Of a DNA stretch of 41,540 nt, positions 28,175 through 41,265 are shown one piece after another. The notes beneath the pieces were generated by a model. It ran no database searches. It was not told where the DNA came from and worked only from the letters and a program-made list of their open reading frames with translations. The position numbers were made by a program, and so were the translations under genes. Every line of letters begins with the position of its first letter. Positions within the stretch are counted from its first letter, which is position 1. Location of the stretch: positions 1-41,540 of IMG/VR virus record IMGVR_UViG_3300048838_001126; one strand, 5' to 3'. This DNA is from a virus.

Positions 28175-28210
28175 GGCTGGCGATCGCGAACGCACGGTGC
28201 TTCGAGGATG

Positions 28211-28630
28211 TCATACAGTATTCGTTACCGCGAGGTTGAGCAGCTTTTTAGCTGCATTTGACGGCGTGCTGAGGCCCATACCCCACCGGTTGGCGGAGTG
28301 GGTATCGACGCCGCACGCCTCTGCGATCCGCTTCCAGGTCCAGCCGCGCGAGCGCAAGTGCTCAAGATCGCGCTGCCATTGCTCACCCATGAGCGTCGGC
28401 ACGTAGCACATCTGGTTATCCTGATCCCAGCCGTACTCGACGAGCTCGATCCCGTCATTGTGAGGCTGCTCCCCGCGGGTCGGCATGTCGCCGCCACAGG
28501 CGCAGTGCGGATAGGACGGGCACAGGGTCTTGCGGGCGCGGCGCACCTGAGAGGAGCTCAACGCGACGCCCGGTGTAACGTCGAGGGTGACGCTGGTTTC
28601 GTGGAAGTCGTTGGTAAGGGTGATTTTCAT
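28211..28630 (-). CDS. HTH-type small protein in leftward operon
   Basis: 139 residues from ATG 28630, preceded by GGGAG at seven bases; an ATG six bases upstream is too close to that site. The N-terminus is beta-like (MKITLTNDFHETSVTLDV). A CPSYPHCACGG cluster follows, and the C-terminus has a helix-turn-helix (WTWKRIAEACGVDTHSANRW). Probably a regulator expressed with the next upstream gene from the promoter at 29018-29046. Confidence 0.7.
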   Translation of the reverse strand: MKITLTNDFHETSVTLDVTPGVALSSSQVRRARKTLCPSYPHCACGGDMPTRGEQPHNDGIELVEYGWDQDNQMCYVPTLMGEQWQRDLEHLRSRGWTWKRIAEACGVDTHSANRWGMGLSTPSNAAKKLLNLAVTNTV

Positions 28631-28650
28631 TGCCATTCTCCCGGGGGTGG

Positions 28651-28670
28651 GGGGCGGCCGGAGCCGCCCC
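28651..28670. promoter_or_regulatory. Intergenic hairpin between two leftward genes
   Basis: GGGGCGGC (28651-28658), loop of four, GCCGCCCC (28663-28670): a perfect 8-bp stem in the 51-base gap between the leftward genes. No T tract on either strand. It may limit read-through or stabilise the upstream message. Confidence 0.55.
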
Positions 28671-28681
28671 GGTTGCGATGA

Positions 28682-28990
28682 TTAAAAGGTGTATTGCTTC
28701 CCGAAGTTCCGCATCGGCGCGAGGCAGAACCACGTGACGCCGTGATCGGTCGTTGAGTAGGCTTCCGGCGTATTCAGCGTTTGCGGATTGATAATCATGA
28801 CCTTCACAAGGCCGGCTTCCGGGTTCGCCATCATGTGACGGGCAACGGCGCGGGCGGCCTTGATGCCGTCGCATCCGGGCGTGTAATAGACTGAGTTGTC
28901 GGCGAAAAACTGGGCGACCGTAAGCCCGGAGACCATGTGCGGCAACCGGTGCTGTGTGTGGGTTCTGAATTCGCTCTGCGTGCTTTCCAT
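28682..28990 (-). CDS. Small hypothetical protein, first gene of leftward operon
   Basis: 102 residues from ATG 28990 (AAGGAG seven bases upstream). Sequence includes LTVAQFFADNSVYYTPGCDG, KAARAVARHMMANPEAGLV and KVMIINPQTLNTPEAYSTTD. It looks like a compact alpha/beta protein; no family recognised. It is driven directly by the promoter at 29018-29046, so it may be made in the lysogen as an accessory factor. Confidence 0.7.
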   Translation of the reverse strand: MESTQSEFRTHTQHRLPHMVSGLTVAQFFADNSVYYTPGCDGIKAARAVARHMMANPEAGLVKVMIINPQTLNTPEAYSTTDHGVTWFCLAPMRNFGKQYTF

Positions 28991-29017
28991 TGCCCGTCTC
29001 CTTAACCTTACGTACAC

Positions 29018-29046
29018 AATATACATACAGCGTGTATGATAGTCAA
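29018..29046 (-). promoter_or_regulatory. Leftward sigma70 promoter
   Basis: On the minus strand: TTGACT (29046-29041), a spacer of exactly 17 bases, TATATT (29023-29018). It lies 28 bases before the ATG of the gene ending at 28682. The region is strikingly AT-rich for this genome. Confidence 0.88.
29024..29038. promoter_or_regulatory. Palindromic operator in promoter spacer
   Basis: CATACAGCGTGTATG is CATACA and TGTATG with a 3-base centre, a perfect 6-bp dyad filling the spacer of the leftward promoter. A repressor here would block polymerase. Its half-site TGTA also occurs in the repressor/Cro operator sequences, so the phage repressor is a candidate binder. Confidence 0.8.
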
Positions 29047-29154
29047 GGGGTGCCGAAGATTATTTCACTTTTTTTGCGGAGGCTCGAAGGTGACCGGGCG
29101 GGTAAGCAAAGAGGGGGCGGCTCCGGGCACCGCTGCAAAAATTCTCGCCGCGCG

Positions 29155-29176
29155 GTGACCAAAAAGTGACCAAAAA
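29155..29176. repeat. attP arm-type sites, far arm (2 x 11 bp)
   Basis: GTGACCAAAAA (29155-29165) repeated immediately (29166-29176). The same motif pair occurs on the other side of the attachment core. A single GTGACC also occurs at 29090. Directly repeated short sites flanking a core are the arm-type binding sites of tyrosine integrases. Confidence 0.75.
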
Positions 29177-29265
29177 CCGTCCCCGAAACGGCAAAATCTG
29201 ACCCACGGAGACTCAACCTGCCGAGCCCGTGGTGTGTCTGCAAACTATTGTCATGAAAGGGATAA

Positions 29266-29330
29266 TGGCGGAGGTGGTAGGATTCGAACCCACGAGCGGG
29301 GGGACCCGCTAACGGTTTTCAAGACCGTTT
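29266..29330 (-). other. attP core: 3' part of a tRNA-Ser(UGA) gene
   Basis: On the minus strand this reads, 5' to 3', anticodon stem-loop ACGGTCTTGAAAACCGT (anticodon TGA at 29321-29319), a long class II variable arm, T arm with GGTTCGAATCC, acceptor strand CACCTCC, discriminator G and CCA (29268-29266). The matching 5' acceptor GGAGGTG and a normal D arm are absent upstream, so it is a truncated tRNA, not a functional one. With the integrase next to it, this is the sequence that restores the host tRNA-Ser 3' end on integration. Confidence 0.9.
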
Positions 29331-29364
29331 GAAACACCGCGCCATCAGAGAGATGCGCTGTCCT

Positions 29365-29386
29365 GTGACCATGTTGTGACCAAAAA
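29365..29386. repeat. attP arm-type sites, near arm (2 x 11 bp)
   Basis: GTGACCATGTT (29365-29375) directly followed by GTGACCAAAAA (29376-29386), the same unit and spacing as at 29155-29176. It lies between the core and the integrase gene end. Confidence 0.75.
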
Positions 29387-29394
29387 CTGAAAGG

Positions 29395-30468
29395 TTAGTT
29401 TGCCGACTTTGCTGCGTTGCGCCGCGGATTGCTGACGGGCAATGCGGGGATCGTAACATCTTCGGGGCGCTGTCGGTAGTAGCGGGCGGCGACGGCGGGG
29501 GTGGTCCAGCCCATGATCTGCTGCAGGACGAGCATGCTGACGCGAGGGGCGAGGTGGGTGGCGGTGGTGGCGCGGATGTCATGCACGCGGCCGGGCGGGT
29601 AACCGGCGGTAGAAAGGACCTGATTCAAACGCTTGTGGAGGGCGACGATGGCGCAGGTGCGGCGGCGTTCATCGTCCGGGCTGCCCCAGCGCTCGCGCCA
29701 GACGACGTAGCCGGGGAGGATGCCGACGTCGGCGGGGGGGCGCAGCATCAGCTCGCGGGCCTCGGCGCTGAGGGGGGCGCGGCGGCCGGTGCGGCTGCGC
29801 TTGCTCCAGGGGTAATCGACGGCGCGCTCGCCGACGTGGCTGGTGTGCAGGCTGACGAGCTCGCCGACGCGGGCGCCAGTGAGGTAGAGGAGGAGGAACA
29901 CGTCGCCGTAGGTGGGGTCGGCGAAGAGGGCGCGCAGCTCAAGGTCTGAGTAGAGGCGCTCGCGCCGCTCGTCGGGCATGCGGGTGCCGTCGAACCATTG
30001 GCGGCTGGAGTAGCCGGCGGGCATGAGATCCCACTTGTCGAGCTGATTGAGAATGGCTCGGAGACTGGAGCGCAGGGAGTTGACGCCCATGGGGGCGTGG
30101 TCGCGGGCGAGGTCGGCGATGACCTCGGCGATGAAGCCGGGGGTGAGCTCGTCCAGGTAGCGGATGCGCCGGGCCTCGGCATGGCGGGCGAAATGGGCGA
30201 TTGCCTGCTCGTACTTGCGGATGGTGGCGGGGTGTTTGCGCGGGGTGAGGCGGGCGATGAGGGCGTCGAATGCCTGCCGCCAGGGGCGGCGGGTGAGGCG
30301 CTCGTGCTCACGGGCGAGCCAGACGGCGACGGCATCATCCGCCTGGCGGCGGGTGGCGGAGGCAGGGACGTCCAGCGCGAAACGCCGGCGCACGCCCCAG
30401 GCGTCGTAGAAATCGGCATACCAGCGGCCGCGGCGGCGGATGACGCGACTGTCACGAGATCTGGGCAT
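29395..30468 (-). CDS. int: Tyrosine-recombinase integrase
   Basis: 357 residues. The N-terminal arm-binding/SAM-like domain includes WYADFYDAWGVRRRF. Catalytic set: Arg 200 (LTGARVGELVSLH), Lys near 223, His 296 and Arg 299 (VHDIRATTATHLA), Trp 321 in the second His position (MGWT), nucleophile Tyr 330 (ARYYRQ). It integrates the phage into tRNA-Ser at attP. The start overlaps the preceding nuclease gene by 17 bases, so it may be co-expressed with the cargo genes in the lysogen. Confidence 0.95.
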   Translation of the reverse strand: MPRSRDSRVIRRRGRWYADFYDAWGVRRRFALDVPASATRRQADDAVAVWLAREHERLTRRPWRQAFDALIARLTPRKHPATIRKYEQAIAHFARHAEARRIRYLDELTPGFIAEVIADLARDHAPMGVNSLRSSLRAILNQLDKWDLMPAGYSSRQWFDGTRMPDERRERLYSDLELRALFADPTYGDVFLLLYLTGARVGELVSLHTSHVGERAVDYPWSKRSRTGRRAPLSAEARELMLRPPADVGILPGYVVWRERWGSPDDERRRTCAIVALHKRLNQVLSTAGYPPGRVHDIRATTATHLAPRVSMLVLQQIMGWTTPAVAARYYRQRPEDVTIPALPVSNPRRNAAKSAN

Positions 30469-30874
30469 ACGAGATTTTCACCGAATGATTTTGTGCCCTG
30501 CCCGCCCAGGCTGTGGCGAGGCCGAGGAAGACGAGGGCGGCGCCGAGGTCCTGACCGCCGACGAGGACGCGGGCGACGAGGCGGCGGTAGCGGTCGCGCG
30601 GGAAGACGGTTCTACGCCCGGCTGGGAGCAGCAGAACCTCCTGCCCCTGGCAGGCGCGGCGCACGAATTCGGCGGCGGCGAGGCCGCGGGGGTCCGGGTT
30701 CTTGCGGGAAATCTCCGGGGCGTCGATCGCCGCCAGGCGCACGCGCTCCTCGCGCCCGTCATCGAGGCGGACGATGAGCGTGTCGCCGTCGACCACGCGC
30801 ACCACCAGCGCCGGCACTCCCTGCGCTTGGAAGAAGATGACGCACAATGAAAGGATGGCGACAAACGGTGTCAC
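30452..30874 (-). CDS. Secreted thermonuclease (SNase family)
   Basis: 140 residues from GTG 30874, whose TGA overlap with the upstream gene supports the start; the frame continues upstream but only over that gene. The N-terminus TPFVAILSLCVIFFQAQG is a signal peptide. VVRVVDGDTLIVRLDDGREE and RVRLAAIDAPE carry the catalytic Asp/Arg/Asp residues, and DRYRRLVARVLVGGQDL the later Arg. The family degrades DNA or RNA outside the cytoplasm. In a prophage it could attack incoming DNA in the periplasm or serve the host. Confidence 0.88.
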   Translation of the reverse strand: MTPFVAILSLCVIFFQAQGVPALVVRVVDGDTLIVRLDDGREERVRLAAIDAPEISRKNPDPRGLAAAEFVRRACQGQEVLLLPAGRRTVFPRDRYRRLVARVLVGGQDLGAALVFLGLATAWAGRAQNHSVKISYAQIS

Positions 30875-31248
30875 TTCCTCACCTTTTCCACGCTGGCGAC
30901 CTTGACGAAGAGCCTGTTTGCGGTCTGCCGGTTCGCGCCCTGAAAGACGGTTACCTGCGCATTTACCAGCGTTCCCCTGATCGAGAGACTGCGCCGATTC
31001 AAGAGAGCCCAAGTGACCAGCTTCAAATGGCTTTCACCGGTGATCAGGAGCGGCACTGAAAATGGCGGTTCATTTCGCCTGGCCGGAATGTTGACGACGT
31101 AAAGCACATCCCCGTCACCCGGAAGCATTGACAGAGTTCCGACCAGGTGAGCGCGGGCGAATCCGATTTCTTCGGCGTTAGATTCCTGCGCCGCTGCCGG
31201 GATGGCGAGGGCGAGGACCAAAACCATGCTGATGAGGATGCCCTTCAT
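30871..31248 (-). CDS. Secreted hypothetical protein of cargo operon
   Basis: 125 residues with a strong TAGGAGGT site. MKGILISMVLVLALAIPAAA is a signal peptide with a likely cleavage before QES. The mature part is beta-rich (AHLVGTLSMLPGDGDVLYVV, LRFVKV-like end VASVEKVRK), suggesting an OB-like or binding domain. Its stop overlaps the nuclease GTG, so the two are translationally coupled and may act together outside the cytoplasm. Confidence 0.75.
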   Translation of the reverse strand: MKGILISMVLVLALAIPAAAQESNAEEIGFARAHLVGTLSMLPGDGDVLYVVNIPARRNEPPFSVPLLITGESHLKLVTWALLNRRSLSIRGTLVNAQVTVFQGANRQTANRLFVKVASVEKVRK

Positions 31249-31257
31249 GCTGACCTC

Positions 31258-31776
31258 CTAGTGGGGCCGCTGGCTGAAGTGGCCATTGGTCCAGATCAAA
31301 TCTTCCTCAAATCTGGTGGCATTGCCCGGCTCTCTCGTCTCCGGTCCGGGGGCGCCGTCGGCGCCGTGACTGGTCAAAACGTAGTATTTGGAACCGGCCA
31401 CTGAGTCTGCCTCGTAAGAGAAGAGGTTGCCCCATGGATCGTTGGGAGAAAATGCTTCGCTCCCCTCAACACCGGCGGCCCGCAACGCAGCAATCAGTTC
31501 CTGAATGCTGTCCACCTTCGGAGAGCCGACTTTGTTGTGATCCATGATGTACTGCTCGACCGCCTGGCCGAGGTGCTGCAGGGCGATGACGGTGTCAGTC
31601 TGCAATTTCCGGTTTCTGGCATCGGTCATGGCCTTGCGCTGCATGCCGGAAACGACGTTGTTAACAACCCGGTCTGTGGCGCTGGGGGGCTGATTCAGGA
31701 TCGCCCAGGCGATGATGCCGCCGGCGATGAGGATTGCCGCGGCGATGATGAGTGCAATGACGGTTCCCTGCTTCAT
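31258..31776 (-). CDS. GspG-like pseudopilin
   Basis: 172 residues from ATG 31776 (GGAG six bases upstream; GTG 31788 and ATG 31782 are alternatives). The start is MKQG then TVIALIIAAAILIAGGIIAW: a short basic leader ending in Gly followed by a hydrophobic helix, as in prepilins but without Phe+1 and Glu+5. After a helix, the C-terminus has NDPWGNLFSYEAD (112-124), YYVLTSHGADGAPG (131-144) and FEEDLIW (156-162), the signature of the GspG calcium-binding region. GspG is the major pseudopilin of type II secretion. In a phage cargo operon with secreted proteins this is unexpected. Confidence 0.82.
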   Translation of the reverse strand: MKQGTVIALIIAAAILIAGGIIAWAILNQPPSATDRVVNNVVSGMQRKAMTDARNRKLQTDTVIALQHLGQAVEQYIMDHNKVGSPKVDSIQELIAALRAAGVEGSEAFSPNDPWGNLFSYEADSVAGSKYYVLTSHGADGAPGPETREPGNATRFEEDLIWTNGHFSQRPH

Positions 31777-31809
31777 GGCCATCTCCACACGTTTGTCTTT
31801 TCATCTAAA

Positions 31810-31832
31810 AGAACGTGCATCGGGGTCGTTCT
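31810..31832 (-). terminator. Candidate terminator after repressor gene
   Basis: On the minus strand AGAACG (31832-31827), an 11-base loop, CGTTCT (31815-31810), followed by TTTAG. A 6-bp stem with a short T run in the 65-base gap before the pseudopilin gene. It could partly separate repressor and cargo transcripts. Confidence 0.5.
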
Positions 31833-31841
31833 GACGAAAAT

Positions 31842-32474
31842 TCAGGGCAAAATCATCACAACGCGCCAGATGTGACGGATCTCTGAGGCCTTCAGCTCGA
31901 TGGGATCGTAGGAGGGATTGAGCGGCTGCAGCAGGTAGCGGTCCGGTGAGAGCATGGCCACCTTCTTGATGAAGCTGCGTCCGTTCGTGTCCTGCACGAA
32001 GTGCACCGCCTTGTTCTTGAATCCAACCGTGGGGCTGACAATCACTCGCGACCCATTCGGGTAGCCCGGCTCCATGCTGTCGCCCCGGATCTCGAGCGCA
32101 AAGGCATTCGGATCATTAACGGGGATCGGCACGCTGCCGAGCATTCCGACACCGACCGGTGTGTCGCCGTCCAGGAAAATCGGGGCATCGGTCCCGCCGG
32201 CGGAAACACCGCTGAGCACCGGAATCTCCTTCGCCGCCAAATACTCCGCCCGCTCGTCCGTCAAGTACCAGCCATCAATGATGTCTGAGAGCGGGACGTC
32301 CAGGTATTCGGCGACAGAGAGCGGAAAATCCCAGGGTGGTGAGTACTTGCCGGAAAGCCACCGGCTCACCTGATCCCGGGAAGTGCCGTAGTGCCCGGCA
32401 AGGTCGGTAATGGACCGTCCCCGTGCCTTCAGAAGAGCTTTTACGTGGTCGCCCCGCAGGTTTTTATCGCCCAT
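31842..32474 (-). CDS. LexA/CI-like repressor with S24 self-cleavage domain
   Basis: 210 residues. HTH at about 20-45 (SITDLAGHYGTSRDQVSRWL). Cleavage site Ala92-Gly93 (VSAGGTD). Catalytic Ser 133 (RGDSMEPGYPNGS) and Lys 170 (SFIKKV). The family dimerises on operators, maintains lysogeny and cleaves itself with RecA after DNA damage, so the prophage is probably SOS-inducible. It is transcribed from the promoter at 32506-32534, divergently from the Cro-like gene. Confidence 0.95.
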   Translation of the reverse strand: MGDKNLRGDHVKALLKARGRSITDLAGHYGTSRDQVSRWLSGKYSPPWDFPLSVAEYLDVPLSDIIDGWYLTDERAEYLAAKEIPVLSGVSAGGTDAPIFLDGDTPVGVGMLGSVPIPVNDPNAFALEIRGDSMEPGYPNGSRVIVSPTVGFKNKAVHFVQDTNGRSFIKKVAMLSPDRYLLQPLNPSYDPIELKASEIRHIWRVVMILP

Positions 32475-32505
32475 TGGCCCGCACCTTCAAATCATTTACG
32501 TCACG

Positions 32506-32534
32506 AATTTAGCGTCACGTGTAGAAAAAGTCAA
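32506..32534 (-). promoter_or_regulatory. Repressor promoter (leftward)
   Basis: Minus strand: TTGACT (32534-32529), 17 bases, TAAATT (32511-32506), 32 bases before the repressor ATG. The spacer contains the operator-like sequence ACGTGTAGAA read from the plus strand (32517-32526). Confidence 0.8.
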
Positions 32535-32596
32535 GAGAAAGTGGACATTTGCATCACAATGCGCAGGACACGACATTTTCATCTTGACGTGTAGAA
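32517..32596. promoter_or_regulatory. Paired operator-like repeats in the genetic switch
   Basis: ACGTGTAGAA occurs at 32517-32526 and 32587-32596, 70 bases apart, once overlapping each promoter. Around the first copy TCACG is repeated (32501-32505 and 32515-32519). Around the second, GACG and CGTC form an imperfect dyad (32586-32602). These are the best candidates for repressor and Cro binding sites. Confidence 0.6.
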
Positions 32597-32612
32597 TTCG
32601 TCGCGTTACATT
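32584..32612 (+). promoter_or_regulatory. Rightward early promoter (PR-like)
   Basis: TTGACG (32584-32589), 17 bases, TACATT (32607-32612), 29 bases before the Cro-like ATG. It faces away from the repressor promoter and drives the early operon. Confidence 0.8.
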
Positions 32613-32640
32613 CGTGGGTGAACGAGAGGGAAACCACGAC

Positions 32641-32910
32641 ATGAAAACCTTTGGCGCAACGCTTCGGGAACTGCGCGGCGGCCGGTCTCAAGACGAGGTC
32701 GCCCGCAAGGCGGGCATCACTAAAGAGACCTACGGGCGCATTGAGCGCGGCGAAGTTTCGAACCTGCGAACAGCCACACTGGTGGGAATCATCCGCGCCC
32801 TGGGCGTCTGGCCCGACCAGGAAGGACTCGACGGGCGCACCGCGACAGTGATCGGCATGCTCGACGCAATCAGCAACGAAGTTCCCCAGGCGCAGGAGCC
32901 GGCCGCATGA
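32641..32910 (+). CDS. Cro-like HTH regulator
   Basis: 89 residues from ATG 32641. FGATLRELRGGRSQDEVARK, AGITKETYGRIERGEVSNLR is an XRE-type helix-turn-helix. It is the first rightward early gene, opposite the repressor, and is thus the presumed Cro. AGAGGGAA upstream is the ribosome-binding site. The last 20 residues are flexible. The stop overlaps the next start. Confidence 0.88.
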   Translation: MKTFGATLRELRGGRSQDEVARKAGITKETYGRIERGEVSNLRTATLVGIIRALGVWPDQEGLDGRTATVIGMLDAISNEVPQAQEPAA

Positions 32911-33512
32911 CCATGGACGGGGCATGGGTTGAGAACGACGGCCTGGCCGTGCGCCACACGGCGAAGGATGCCAATCCGGAGAACCCCTGGAGCGTGCGCT
33001 TTCTCCCGGGCGATCTGAGCCTGATCGTGGGCTGGGAGACGTTCCGGGTTGCCGGGCAGACACATGCGATGGGATTCACCTTCGACTCCGCCGGGGATGC
33101 GCGGGCGTTCTTCCGCACGTGCCTGGAGAAGATGGCGGATGGGCCCGACGGGGAAGTGAAACCAATCCGCGTCACGGACGCGGTGGCTGACGCGCTGGTG
33201 GCGTTCCTCAATTCCCTGGTCGAGATCGATCAGTACGCGGTGCATGAGTTGATTTCCTGCCGGGTGCCCTGCAACCGGCAGATGGCGGAGCACCCGAGCG
33301 TGCAGGTGGCGGCGGCGGGCGATGAGGTTTTTGTGCCGCCGGGCCAGTTCCGCGTCGGGATGCTCGGCGTGCTCAACGGTTTCATGGGCGCGGCGGTTGG
33401 CGTGATTTGTGCCGACTTCGACGCACGCGGCCGCCTGGTCGGTTTTCGGCGGACGCTTGCGCACGAGGTGCACACCGTGCCGCTGGATGACGAAGACGGG
33501 AGCGCGTCATGA
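32907..33512 (+). CDS. Early hypothetical protein
   Basis: 201 residues, ATGA-coupled to the Cro-like gene. Contains NPWSVRFLPGDLSLIVGWET, FTFDSAGDARAFFRTCLEKM and HELISCRVPCNRQMAEHPSV. The C-terminal part (GMLGVLNGFMGAAVGVICAD) resembles a small alpha/beta domain. No family recognised. Position suggests a takeover or regulatory function. Confidence 0.7.
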   Translation: MTMDGAWVENDGLAVRHTAKDANPENPWSVRFLPGDLSLIVGWETFRVAGQTHAMGFTFDSAGDARAFFRTCLEKMADGPDGEVKPIRVTDAVADALVAFLNSLVEIDQYAVHELISCRVPCNRQMAEHPSVQVAAAGDEVFVPPGQFRVGMLGVLNGFMGAAVGVICADFDARGRLVGFRRTLAHEVHTVPLDDEDGSAS

Positions 33513-34809: not shown

Positions 34810-35264
34810 ACACCCCGATGCAGATCGAGCCGTCGCGCCATGACGGGCCGCTGGATGTGCTGCCGGGTGAGGAGCGGCTGCTCCCGGACTGGAAACAGAA
34901 GTGGCAGCAGAAATGCGCGGAGATCGAAGGGAAGCGTCCGGTGCGTGGTGACGGGCCGGAGGCGCGGCCGGCGGGCATGGGGTCCGCCGGACCGGACTTG
35001 CGGGGGACTGGATCCCGCGACACCGCACCGGGGGGCGCGGCGCAATCCGCAGTTGACGGATCGCGCCGGCCGGACGGCACCCGGAGCGCGCACTGTCGGC
35101 CTGGCGCCCCCCACGGCGGGCCGATGCCGTCCGCCATTGGCGGACACCCCGGAGACCCGGCAATCCCCACGGAGCCCCCCTGCTCCGCGCCGGGTCTCCA
35201 CTCCCACTCATTTCAACTGACGCAGGAACCGCTCCCTTTCGCGGGGGCACGGAGACCGGCATGA
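34806..35264 (+). CDS. Hypothetical ORF whose 3' half overlaps a structured RNA candidate
   Basis: 152 residues from ATG 34806 (GGGGGAG upstream). The first 55 codons look protein-like (LDVLPGEERLLPDWKQKWQQ, then KCAEIEGK). The rest is Gly/Pro/Arg/Ala-rich with low complexity and coincides with a run of perfect inverted repeats (34981-35199). Its stop overlaps the next ATG (ATGA), which argues that the frame may still be translated to the end. Either a short protein followed by an RNA element, or a dual-use sequence. No family recognised. Confidence 0.5.
   Translation: MNTPMQIEPSRHDGPLDVLPGEERLLPDWKQKWQQKCAEIEGKRPVRGDGPEARPAGMGSAGPDLRGTGSRDTAPGGAAQSAVDGSRRPDGTRSAHCRPGAPHGGPMPSAIGGHPGDPAIPTEPPCSAPGLHSHSFQLTQEPLPFAGARRPA
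34981..35199 (+). ncRNA. Candidate multi-helix structured RNA (three-way junction)
   Basis: Helices read by eye: GGTCC/GGACC (34981-34993); GCGGG/CCCGC (35000-35018); closing helix GGGGGGCGC (35030-35038) with GCGCCCCCC (35104-35112). The closing helix encloses hairpin A: GGCGC (35039-35043)/GCGCC (35063-35067) plus ATCCG (35045-35049)/CGGAT (35057-35061). It also encloses hairpin B: GGCCG.GAC (35068-35075)/GTCGGCC (35095-35101). Then GTCCGCCA/TGGCGGAC (35129-35145). Last, GGAGACCCGGC (35151-35161)/GCCGGGTCTCC (35189-35199) enclosing GGAG/CTCC. The helices nest without conflict. No T tract follows. I know no matching family. Confidence 0.6.
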
Positions 35265-38982: not shown

Positions 38983-39724
38983 AGACACCCCGGCCTTGCC
39001 GGAGACGTTCGCGCCGGGCGAGCTGGTGGCGACCTGGCTGGAGGCGGCGGCGGAGGCGGCGCGGCGCTTGCCGTCGGAGCATCCGGAGTGCGTGAAGCGC
39101 ACGGACGGGAGCAAGACAGGGAAAAGGTACGAAACGGCCGGGATCCGCTTTGCGTGGCTGTGGGAGGTGCTGATTGCGCACGTGCCGGCGTCGCTGCTCT
39201 GCCCCGGCCGGGCGGAGGTGACGGTGGAGCAGCGGGAGGATTCGTTCTCCGTCTCAATGGCGGTGAGCCTGCGGATCATGAATCCGAACGGGAGCGGCGA
39301 GGTGCTGGCGGAGACGAGCGCGATCGGCAATCACTCCGGGCGTGAGCGCGGGGACGTGTTGCGCGGGGCGGAAACCAGCGGATTGAAACGCTGCCTGGCG
39401 AATTGGGGGATCGGGATCGAGGCGTTCAAGGGGACGCTGGGCGCGGCGCCGGGGCGCACCCCGTCCGGCACCGCCGGCCAGGGGAATAAAAACCGGTCGG
39501 CGCCGGGGCAGATGGACGATCGGGCTTTGCTGCTGGAGGTGAAAAAGCGGGCGGCGGTGGCATTGCGGGAGCGGAAACAGGATGTTGCGGCCGAGCGGCT
39601 GAGCTGCCCGGACGACGTTTGGGACTTTGCGCGGCTGAACAAGCTGCAGGTGGGGGACCTGACGCCTGAGCTGCGGCACTGGCTGCATGGCCTGCTGCAG
39701 GACCTGCAGAAGGTGACGGCATGA
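38957..39724 (+). CDS. Rad52-like single-strand annealing protein (candidate)
   Basis: 255 residues from ATG 38957, with AAGAGG upstream. Residues 1-120 form an alpha/beta domain (FAPGELVATWLEAAAEAARR, YETAGIRFAWLWEVLIAHVP). RGDVLRGAETSGLKRCLANWGI (shown here in part) matches the Rad52/Sak motif in which an A-x-T-x-x-x-K-R-x-L helix precedes a Gly. Residues 150-180 are a flexible linker; the last 70 form a helical domain. A recombination role is expected next to the replication genes. The N-terminus is encoded by the heptad tract. Confidence 0.68.
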   Translation: MSNDELRKGDTPALPETFAPGELVATWLEAAAEAARRLPSEHPECVKRTDGSKTGKRYETAGIRFAWLWEVLIAHVPASLLCPGRAEVTVEQREDSFSVSMAVSLRIMNPNGSGEVLAETSAIGNHSGRERGDVLRGAETSGLKRCLANWGIGIEAFKGTLGAAPGRTPSGTAGQGNKNRSAPGQMDDRALLLEVKKRAAVALRERKQDVAAERLSCPDDVWDFARLNKLQVGDLTPELRHWLHGLLQDLQKVTA

Positions 39725-41265
39725 CGGCTCCTGGCTCCGTGGAAAACATTGCGCCGCGGCGAGGTCCGGGGCGGCTGCTGGAGCGGATCGGGGGGACGAG
39801 CATGGCGCCGGGGGCGACGGACTGGGCGACGCCGGGGTGGCTGTTCGACTGGCTGGACGGGATTTTCCATTTCACGCTGGACGCGGCGGCGGAGGCGGGC
39901 AACGCAAAGTGCGCGAGATTCCACTCGCGGGAGGATGACGGGCTGGCGCAGAGCTGGGCGGGGGAGACGGTGTGGCTGAATCCGCCCTTCGGTGCGGAGA
40001 TCAAAGGGTGGATGGCAAAGGCGGCGCGGGAGCACGCTGAGCACGGCTGCACGGTGGTGTGCCTGGTGCCGGCGCGGACCTGCACGGCATGGTGGCACGA
40101 GAGCGTGCTGCCGCTGGCGCGGGTGGTGTTTTTCCGGGGGCGGATCGCCTTTGTGCGCCCGGACGGCACGCCGGGCCGCCCGGCGCCGTTTTCGCCGGCG
40201 CTGGTGATTTACTCCTCGGCGCCGGTGACGGAGCTGGGGGCGGCGATCGATCTGCGTGAGGTGAAACGGGAAGTGGACCAAGGCTGGCACAGGGAGCGGC
40301 GGAAATTGACGAGGGTGGAAAAAGCGACGGCGCCGACACGGCCGGTGCTGCGCTGGCACGGGGGGAAATGGCGCCTGGCGCCATGGATCCTGAATCACTT
40401 CCCACCGCACCGGATTTACGTGGAGCCGTATGGCGGGGCGGCGAGCGTGCTGATGCGCAAGCCGCGCTCCTACGCGGAGATTTACAACGACCTGGACGGG
40501 GAGGTGGTGAACCTGTTCCGGGTGCTGCAGGACGAGGCGCTGGCCGGGAGACTGACGCACCTGCTGCGGCTGACACCGTTCGCGCGGGAGGAATTTCTGC
40601 TCTCCTACGAGCCGACGGATGACCCGGTGGAGCGGGCACGGCGGCTGGTGGTGGTGTCGTTCATGGGGTTCGGGAGCAACGCGCACAACAGGGGGATCAA
40701 AACCGGGTTTCGCGCGAATTCAAACAGGTCTGGCACGCCACCGGCGCACGAATGGGAGCATTTCCCGCTGGCTTTGCCGGGGACCGTGACGCGGCTGCAG
40801 GGGGTGGTGATCGAGACCCGGGACGCGCTGGCGGTGATGGCGCAGCACGACGGGCCGAAGACGCTGCACTACGTTGACCCGCCCTACATGACGGAGACGC
40901 GCAGCGGGAAAATGCACCGCAAGTGCAACTACTCGCATGAAATGGACGCGGCGGACCATGAGCGGCTGCTGGAGTTTCTGAATGGCCTGGCGGGGATGGT
41001 GGTGCTCTCGGCCTACCCGCATCCGCTTTACGACGGGATGCTGACGGGCTGGCAGCGGATCGAGCGGGCAGCGTTCGCTGACGGGGCGCGGCCGCGCACG
41101 GAGGTGCTGTGGCTGAACCCGCTGGCGGCGGCGCGGCGGAACACGATGACGCTGTTTGACCAGGTGAACATGGGCGGCGACCCGTTCGGCATGGAGAGCG
41201 TGGAGGAATTGGACATCCGGAAACTGCAGCGGCTGGAAATGGATGCCTCAGGAGGTGAACTTTGA
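39721..41265 (+). CDS. Fusion of two adenine DNA methyltransferase domains
   Basis: 514 residues. Domain 1 (about 28-185) is of the phage N6-adenine methyltransferase type: DWATPGWLFDWLDGIFHFTL, DAAAEAGNAKC, catalytic NPPF at 87-90. Domain 2 (about 205-500) is a D12 Dam: RWHGGKWRLAPWIL (211-224), YVEPYGGAASVL (233-244), catalytic DPPY at 386-389. Each domain has the usual full length, so both may be active. They are normally separate proteins. The start overlaps the Rad52-like stop (ATGA), and another Dam follows. Confidence 0.92.
   Translation: MTAPGSVENIAPRRGPGRLLERIGGTSMAPGATDWATPGWLFDWLDGIFHFTLDAAAEAGNAKCARFHSREDDGLAQSWAGETVWLNPPFGAEIKGWMAKAAREHAEHGCTVVCLVPARTCTAWWHESVLPLARVVFFRGRIAFVRPDGTPGRPAPFSPALVIYSSAPVTELGAAIDLREVKREVDQGWHRERRKLTRVEKATAPTRPVLRWHGGKWRLAPWILNHFPPHRIYVEPYGGAASVLMRKPRSYAEIYNDLDGEVVNLFRVLQDEALAGRLTHLLRLTPFAREEFLLSYEPTDDPVERARRLVVVSFMGFGSNAHNRGIKTGFRANSNRSGTPPAHEWEHFPLALPGTVTRLQGVVIETRDALAVMAQHDGPKTLHYVDPPYMTETRSGKMHRKCNYSHEMDAADHERLLEFLNGLAGMVVLSAYPHPLYDGMLTGWQRIERAAFADGARPRTEVLWLNPLAAARRNTMTLFDQVNMGGDPFGMESVEELDIRKLQRLEMDASGGEL

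Follow-up and report, generated by a model that had tools for sequence, protein, structure and literature searches.

A membrane-tethered GspG-type head among candidate envelope cargo genes between the repressor and integrase of a probably temperate phage

What would a temperate phage do with three neighboring genes, predicted to encode envelope proteins, that lie between its repressor and its integrase? This question is raised by IMG/VR virus record IMGVR_UViG_3300048838_001126, which was analyzed over its whole length of 41,540 bases (hereafter, the window). The record has a GC content of 66% and is classed as linear, and no end repeats were found in it. Given that genes for the small and large terminase, the portal and an HK97-type major head protein are present together with a repressor and integrase module, the latter on the minus strand, the window represents a tailed, probably temperate phage; a long tape-measure-like open reading frame (ORF) and a gene for an M15 peptidase are also found. 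The three cargo genes encode a protein with the head domain of the type II secretion pseudopilin GspG, a small protein with a predicted signal peptide and a protein resembling staphylococcal nuclease (SNase). On the basis of the domain findings and of the position between repressor and integrase, we judge that they form a lysogeny-expressed envelope cargo (moron) module, for which the most likely role would be superinfection exclusion by way of a tethered GspG head. We hold this reading tentatively, at slightly less than even confidence.

The protein encoded next to the repressor scored 32.1 bits for Pfam T2SSG (PF08334), where the cut-off is 21, and 44 bits on a custom hidden Markov model (HMM) built from 69 of the 71 cellular GspG sequences fetched; on the same HMM, 2,000 shuffled versions of the post-membrane part reached 7.6 bits at most. 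An earlier note, made from the letters of this DNA, had recognized a GspG signature here, and that recognition is borne out by the profile scores. The TIGR01710 equivalog was not reached (22.7 bits against a cut-off of 88.85). An AlphaFold2 model made from 15 sequences, GspGs among them, had a mean pLDDT of 77.3, with values below 50 at residues 146-172, and consisted of a transmembrane (TM) helix at approximately residues 3-27, a hydrophilic stalk, a long helix at residues 33-79 and a small beta head. When this model was aligned to solved structures with VIA-align, seven of the eight best rows were type II pseudopilins (Z scores of 8.3 to 6.5), the eighth being a type IVb pilin, and the best neighbors included the GspG crystal structures 3g20, 1t92, 3gn9 and 3fu1. 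The structural comparison with GspG that had been proposed as a check thus favored the assignment of the head.

By contrast, the N-terminal region departs from that of GspG. The prepilin motif (a G/F peptidase site with Phe+1 and Glu+5) is absent from the ORF as a whole, in line with the earlier remark that Phe+1 and Glu+5 are lacking; among the matches listed, every one of the 71 cellular relatives has it. Glu+5 was located exactly 45 residues before an aligned Tyr in 14 of 14 GspGs (alignment A3); in the window protein the TM helix starts 71 residues before that Tyr, and the segment that corresponds in register to the prepilin helix is of a hydrophilic composition, with a mean hydropathy of -0.5 compared with 1.93 to 2.57 in the GspGs. 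Given this shift of the TM helix by ∼26 residues relative to the 14 GspGs, the head is carried on a stalk that is longer by approximately the same amount and ends in a plain anchor, the hydropathy of which (2.77 over 19 residues) predicts anchoring in the envelope. As pseudopilins are understood, a protein without the prepilin helix and site would not be cleaved by prepilin peptidase or pack into a filament; the window protein would therefore be neither cleavable nor polymerizable in the normal way. No gsp operon surrounds the gene, whose neighbors are cI, the two other cargo genes and int. In summary, the protein shares with GspG, PulG and EpsG the C-terminal head with its NDPWGN motif, the loop region GADG-PG (here GADGAPG) and the long helix, but differs from them in the peptidase site, Glu+5, the operon context and the placement of the anchor. 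The earlier note spoke of a "GspG-like pseudopilin"; by the family's own rules, the protein is not a pseudopilin.

The membrane and stalk part (31618-31776) also gave a sub-threshold match to DUF2749 over a hydrophobic stretch (18.6 bits, where the cut-off is 25.5; E=0.0019). This family is presumably linked to plasmid entry exclusion (TrbK), an unconfirmed association that was not used here; a plasmid search with the membrane and stalk segment gave no match, and a literature search for DUF2749 gave none either.

Position is the strongest functional clue to the cargo. The minus-strand order of cI, GspG-like gene, secreted-protein gene, SNase gene and integrase gene (Table 1) agrees with the tightly packed arrangement described in the earlier note: cI and the GspG-like gene are separated by 65 bp and the latter and the secreted-protein gene by 9 bp, whereas the secreted-protein and SNase genes overlap by 4 bp (GTGA) and the SNase gene and int by 17 bp. 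The start chosen for the GspG-like gene is an ATG preceded by GGAG at a distance of six bases, for which the GTG at 31788 is a possible alternative, and the ATG of the secreted-protein gene has AGGAGG five bases ahead of it; the SNase gene starts with GTG. Ribosome-binding sites were fair to good at the chosen starts, int excepted. A scan of positions 28200-33000 turned up five promoter-like sites, compared with 0.8 expected from shuffled sequence. The site listed in Table 1 was the only one on the minus strand upstream of the cargo, and two plus-strand sites at 32570-32612 face the Cro-like gene. Terminator-like sites were not enriched over chance (two found against 3.5 expected), and a weak one (31124-31110) is situated within the secreted-protein gene; between cI and int, none was convincing. 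The simplest reading would be a single transcript running from the cI promoter through int.

Table 1. Features of the lysogeny module in the window
Feature	Coordinates	Strand	Evidence
cI-type repressor, helix-turn-helix (HTH) and S24 peptidase	31842..32474	-	Pfam Peptidase_S24 E=2.7e-17, HTH_31/HTH_3; PHROG 4 repressor E=6.2e-33
GspG-head protein, membrane-anchored (predicted), 172 aa	31258..31776	-	Pfam T2SSG E=1.2e-7
Small secreted protein (predicted), 125 aa	30871..31248	-	Signal peptide predicted to end near AAAQ; family not recognized
Staphylococcal-nuclease-like protein, 140 aa	30452..30874	-	Pfam SNase E=2.6e-11
Tyrosine integrase	29395..30468	-	Pfam Phage_integrase PF00589 E=5.5e-10; PHROG 1 E=1.7e-29
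Divergent Cro-like HTH protein, other side of the switch	32632..32910	+	Pfam HTH_31 E=3.3e-11
Sigma-70-like promoter, TTGACT-17-TAAATT, ~30 bp upstream of cI	32506..32534	-	Promoter-like site scan

A strongly hydrophobic N terminus was found in 4 of 36 hand-listed coding sequences (a few starts being approximate), and three of these four are the cargo neighbors; the chance of three such N termini in a run is ∼0.02. The view that all three products are exported or membrane proteins is thus upheld by prediction, with export of the SNase depending on the choice of its start. Beyond int, two further minus-strand ORFs are found at 28211-29026, one with a weak match to HTH_23 (E=5e-4), and a promoter-like site (29046-29018) lies by them.

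Cargo in this position has precedents, which favor the exclusion reading. Another viral record, L081, has a T2SSG-domain gene directly after a repressor gene, and exported or membrane-anchored SNases are encoded downstream of the repressor in Curvibacter phage TJ1 and between repressor and integrase in Anoxybacillus phage A403 (all described below). In lactococcal phages, the genes between integrase and repressor are described as including proven exclusion genes (PMC7693887), and Ltp, a membrane-tethered protein from the lysogeny module of Streptococcus thermophilus phage TP-J34, is described as transcribed from the prophage and as blocking DNA injection (PMC3952083). The window protein would share with Ltp and Sie the form of a membrane-anchored, outward-facing protein in a lysogeny module (PMC3952083, PMC7693887), but it has a TM rather than a lipid anchor and another head, and no sequence relation is shown. 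As in the case of rexA and rexB of lambda, the cargo directly follows cI on the repressor strand, although the proteins are others and there is no evidence for a Rex mechanism. Rex itself is reported to cause exclusion (PMC11436027). In its situation between repressor and integrase on the cI strand, the module is of the Ltp/Sie/rex kind, and the new part would be the membrane-tethered pseudopilin head.

On the exclusion reading, this HK97-type temperate phage would carry a moron module at the usual site for such cargo, downstream of cI and in the same direction, which would be expressed in dormancy and would supply the envelope with three proteins. The GspG head would be held in the inner membrane by a non-cleavable TM helix and a lengthened stalk and would face outward; in the absence of a prepilin helix, it would undergo neither peptidase cleavage nor extraction nor packing into a filament. 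Tethered in this way, the head would occupy a periplasmic docking surface, which may belong to the type II secretion system (T2SS), to a type IV pilus machine or to the injection apparatus of an incoming phage, and a periplasmic barrier would be added by the secreted protein together with the nuclease-like one, provided that the latter is active. The net effect would most likely be superinfection exclusion at the level of the envelope. The module probably alters the surface of the infected cell and perhaps keeps rival viruses out; we infer the docking target, co-transcription, export and exclusion from the position and domains described above.

The contribution of the nuclease-like protein would depend on its activity and its location. 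It scored 44.4 bits for Pfam SNase (PF00565; cut-off 21), with profile positions 1-87 of 107 covered and 88-107 unmatched. In an alignment to staphylococcal nuclease, and in what we take to be the catalytic numbering of that enzyme, Asp21, Arg35, Asp40, Glu43 and Arg87 are all identical, and Thr41 is replaced by Ala. The N terminus is hydrophobic, more weakly so than in the two other cargo proteins, and predicted export hinges on the GTG at 30874, because a start at 30817 would give a cytoplasmic protein. Among the best 80 SNase-bearing viral loci, a clearly hydrophobic N terminus was found in 10 proteins, 9 of which also have a C-terminal GLW segment; most of the phage SNases without a hydrophobic N terminus are likewise without the GLW end.

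The small secreted protein has a predicted signal peptide with a hydropathy of 2.19 and gave no match of note in Pfam, NCBIfam, the PDB or phage sequences. Its AlphaFold2 model, made from the single sequence, was unusable (pLDDT of 38.8), and an OB fold is hinted at solely by the strand order b-b-b-a-b-b. Matches in the phage collection (two) were at chance level, as were those at E<=0.01 in genomes (4 of 398 and 2 of 294, or 6 of 692).

A more specific form of the exclusion reading would have the head, captured by temperate phages, stripped of its polymerizing helix and set on a fixed membrane anchor, act in lysogeny as a decoy or cap that jams the T2SS or the type IV pilus from the periplasmic side and so excludes rivals that depend on pili or injection, with pilin-type genes that adjoin a repressor, such as those of the viral records L081 and L214, as independent inventions of a similar sort. 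We consider this form unlikely. Apart from the window protein, the GspG profile detected a T2SSG domain in a single viral protein, that of L081. In that record (L081:542-2332), an S24 repressor gene is followed 9 bp later, on the same strand, by a gene for a 363-amino acid prepilin-type protein (Pfam N_methyl E=4.9e-7; T2SSG E=8.1e-6), which precedes a YqaJ recombinase gene; a viral scan with this protein returned L081 only. Lambda rexA and rexB sit directly downstream of cI, in roughly the place of this gene. In L214 (5812-7453), a major-pilin-like gene converges on cI at a distance of ∼55 bp; one more HTH gene lies on the opposite side. These two proteins, like PHROG 3433 ("pilin") of cyanophages, resemble the window protein as filament-type subunits carried by phages, but unlike it they keep the prepilin motif. 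The adjoining of pilin and repressor as a general rule was rejected: among 81 pilin-bearing viral records (L081 and 80 of at least 143 confirmed), an S24 repressor was present in 3 of 41 and 4 of 40 (7 of 81), and the pilin adjoined it in L081 and L214, that is, in 2 of 81. Without L081, which was found by another search, the figure becomes one in six, so that the statistical support is small.

That tally weighs against the exclusion reading, as do several further results. Single-sequence scans, which detect close relatives only, found no close relative of the T2SSG-domain or the secreted protein in viral contigs, nor any of the former in the phage collection. In 50 of the 76 related viral loci obtained by terminase, many of them fragments, a T2SSG domain and an SNase domain were each found in none (0/50), and relatives of the T2SSG or the secreted protein were found in none of the best 80 SNase-bearing viral loci. 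The expectation that the trio would recur in other phages was not borne out in any of these three comparisons, and the trio as a conserved system was rejected on present data, viral records often being fragments. The composition of the cargo is not uniform either: third-position GC (GC3) falls into two blocks, with values of 0.76 for cI, 0.75 for the T2SSG gene and 0.71 for the secreted-protein gene in one, and of 0.84 for the SNase gene and 0.87 for int in the other. Given that the SNase gene matches int, the nuclease may have come with the integrase. Moreover, the window SNase is without the GLW segment and is short in its C-terminal helix region. With no recurrence, two composition blocks and a C-terminally short nuclease, a three-part machine is not supported. 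As for the head itself, a search with Foldseek alone returned no hits at E<=0.001, its top two rows being type IV pilins (E=0.27 and 1.4), and the likeness of the model to GspG is not independent of the GspG sequences in its input alignment. Finally, three genes so placed in Dub35A are reported to have conferred no resistance when cloned (PMC7693887), from which it follows that position is not proof of function.

Many of the same observations would be explained if the three genes were heterogeneous, partly decaying morons that share a transcript and have no joint function, the GspG-derived and secreted-protein genes having come with cI and the 3' end of the SNase gene having been clipped by the integrase module. 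The two compositional blocks, the short SNase that runs 17 bp into int, the lack of co-occurrence wherever it was searched for and a secreted protein without detectable relatives all speak for this account. However, the three reading frames are intact and have plausible ribosome-binding sites, the SNase retains the residues at its catalytic positions, and a run of three adjoining hydrophobic N termini is improbable by chance. We regard decay as doubtful, though it has a real share of the probability.

The loss of the polymerizing helix from a GspG-type head would also be consistent with dominant-negative lysogenic conversion, in which the tethered head binds assembly partners and reduces secretion, pilus formation or DNA uptake by the host, with or without a resulting exclusion of phages. 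The phage peptides Tip and Aqs1, described as disabling pili by binding PilB, provide a precedent (PMC11656802). As far as that account describes them, Tip, Aqs1 and Zip resemble the proposed head in disabling a type IV filament machine, but they are small peptides that act on the PilB motor or the PilZ-PilB complex and are not pilin-like (PMC11656802). Known phage inhibitors thus hit the cytoplasmic motor and are not pilin mimics, and no host was identified. In searches by terminase of 385 genomes from the class of L136 (Maricaulis), 369 from the class of L129 (Aromatoleum) and 294 from the phylum of L100 (Planctomycetota), the relatives found had at most 50% identity. The best terminase relative was rejected as a pointer to the host, its contig having a GC content of ∼40%, a mismatch to that of the window. 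That these searches assigned no host, and with it no T2SS or pilus, counts against the exclusion reading as well. Dominant-negative conversion is, in our estimate, quite unlikely to be the correct account.

We consider it improbable that the module is a divided counterpart of SNIPE, in which the anchored head would position the exported SNase and the secreted protein where foreign DNA crosses the envelope. A one-chain version of such an arrangement may be seen in Anoxybacillus phage A403 (L234:5533-6693), where an SNase with two hydrophobic segments is encoded between repressor and integrase. The A403 protein has a cysteine-containing C-terminal domain, which we take to be Excalibur-like. In Curvibacter phage TJ1, an SNase with a short hydrophobic N terminus is encoded after the repressor, with one gene in between. 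These are single examples, and an exported SNase beside the integrase was not supported as a rule: of 50 SNase-bearing records, 4 contain an integrase, which comes no closer to the SNase than ∼5 kb. SNIPE itself is described as a membrane-bound injection nuclease with GIY-YIG and DUF4041 domains and a nuclease that faces the cytoplasm (PMC13190303). The cargo would share with it a nuclease stationed at the envelope, but SNIPE is a single chain with a cytoplasmic nuclease, and neither DUF4041 nor GIY-YIG was matched by Pfam at E<=1 in the three cargo proteins. The C-terminal shortness of the SNase and the absence of any sign of binding among the three proteins are further points against a divided SNIPE. 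On the tests made with these sequences, the cargo is a member of neither GspG nor SNIPE.

An early lytic function, in which the nuclease and the membrane proteins would act on host DNA or envelope after induction, is highly improbable because the genes share the strand of cI, are set apart from the rightward early genes and have predicted export signals, even though they are co-directional with int and could be read at excision and most of the phage SNases compared have no hydrophobic N terminus.

Elsewhere in the window, a fusion of Dam and D12 adenine methyltransferases is encoded near the right end (39721-41265), and a second D12 methyltransferase fragment (17-661) extends beyond the left end of the record. 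A 99-base tRNA-Val called by ARAGORN on the minus strand (34992-35090), amid plus-strand early genes, is probably a false positive.

A phage system of this make-up, or any exclusion system based on a phage pseudopilin or pilin mimic, was not found in our searches of the open-licence PMC literature, in agreement with the earlier note, which knew of no such system. If the tethered head does obstruct a filament machine, exclusion would proceed by mimicry of a subunit and not by binding of the motor, a mode absent from the literature searched, and the protein would be a natural dominant-negative tool for studying how GspG engages its periplasmic partners. Even if it has no such function, the window protein clearly exemplifies a GspG head that a phage has detached from the prepilin pathway.

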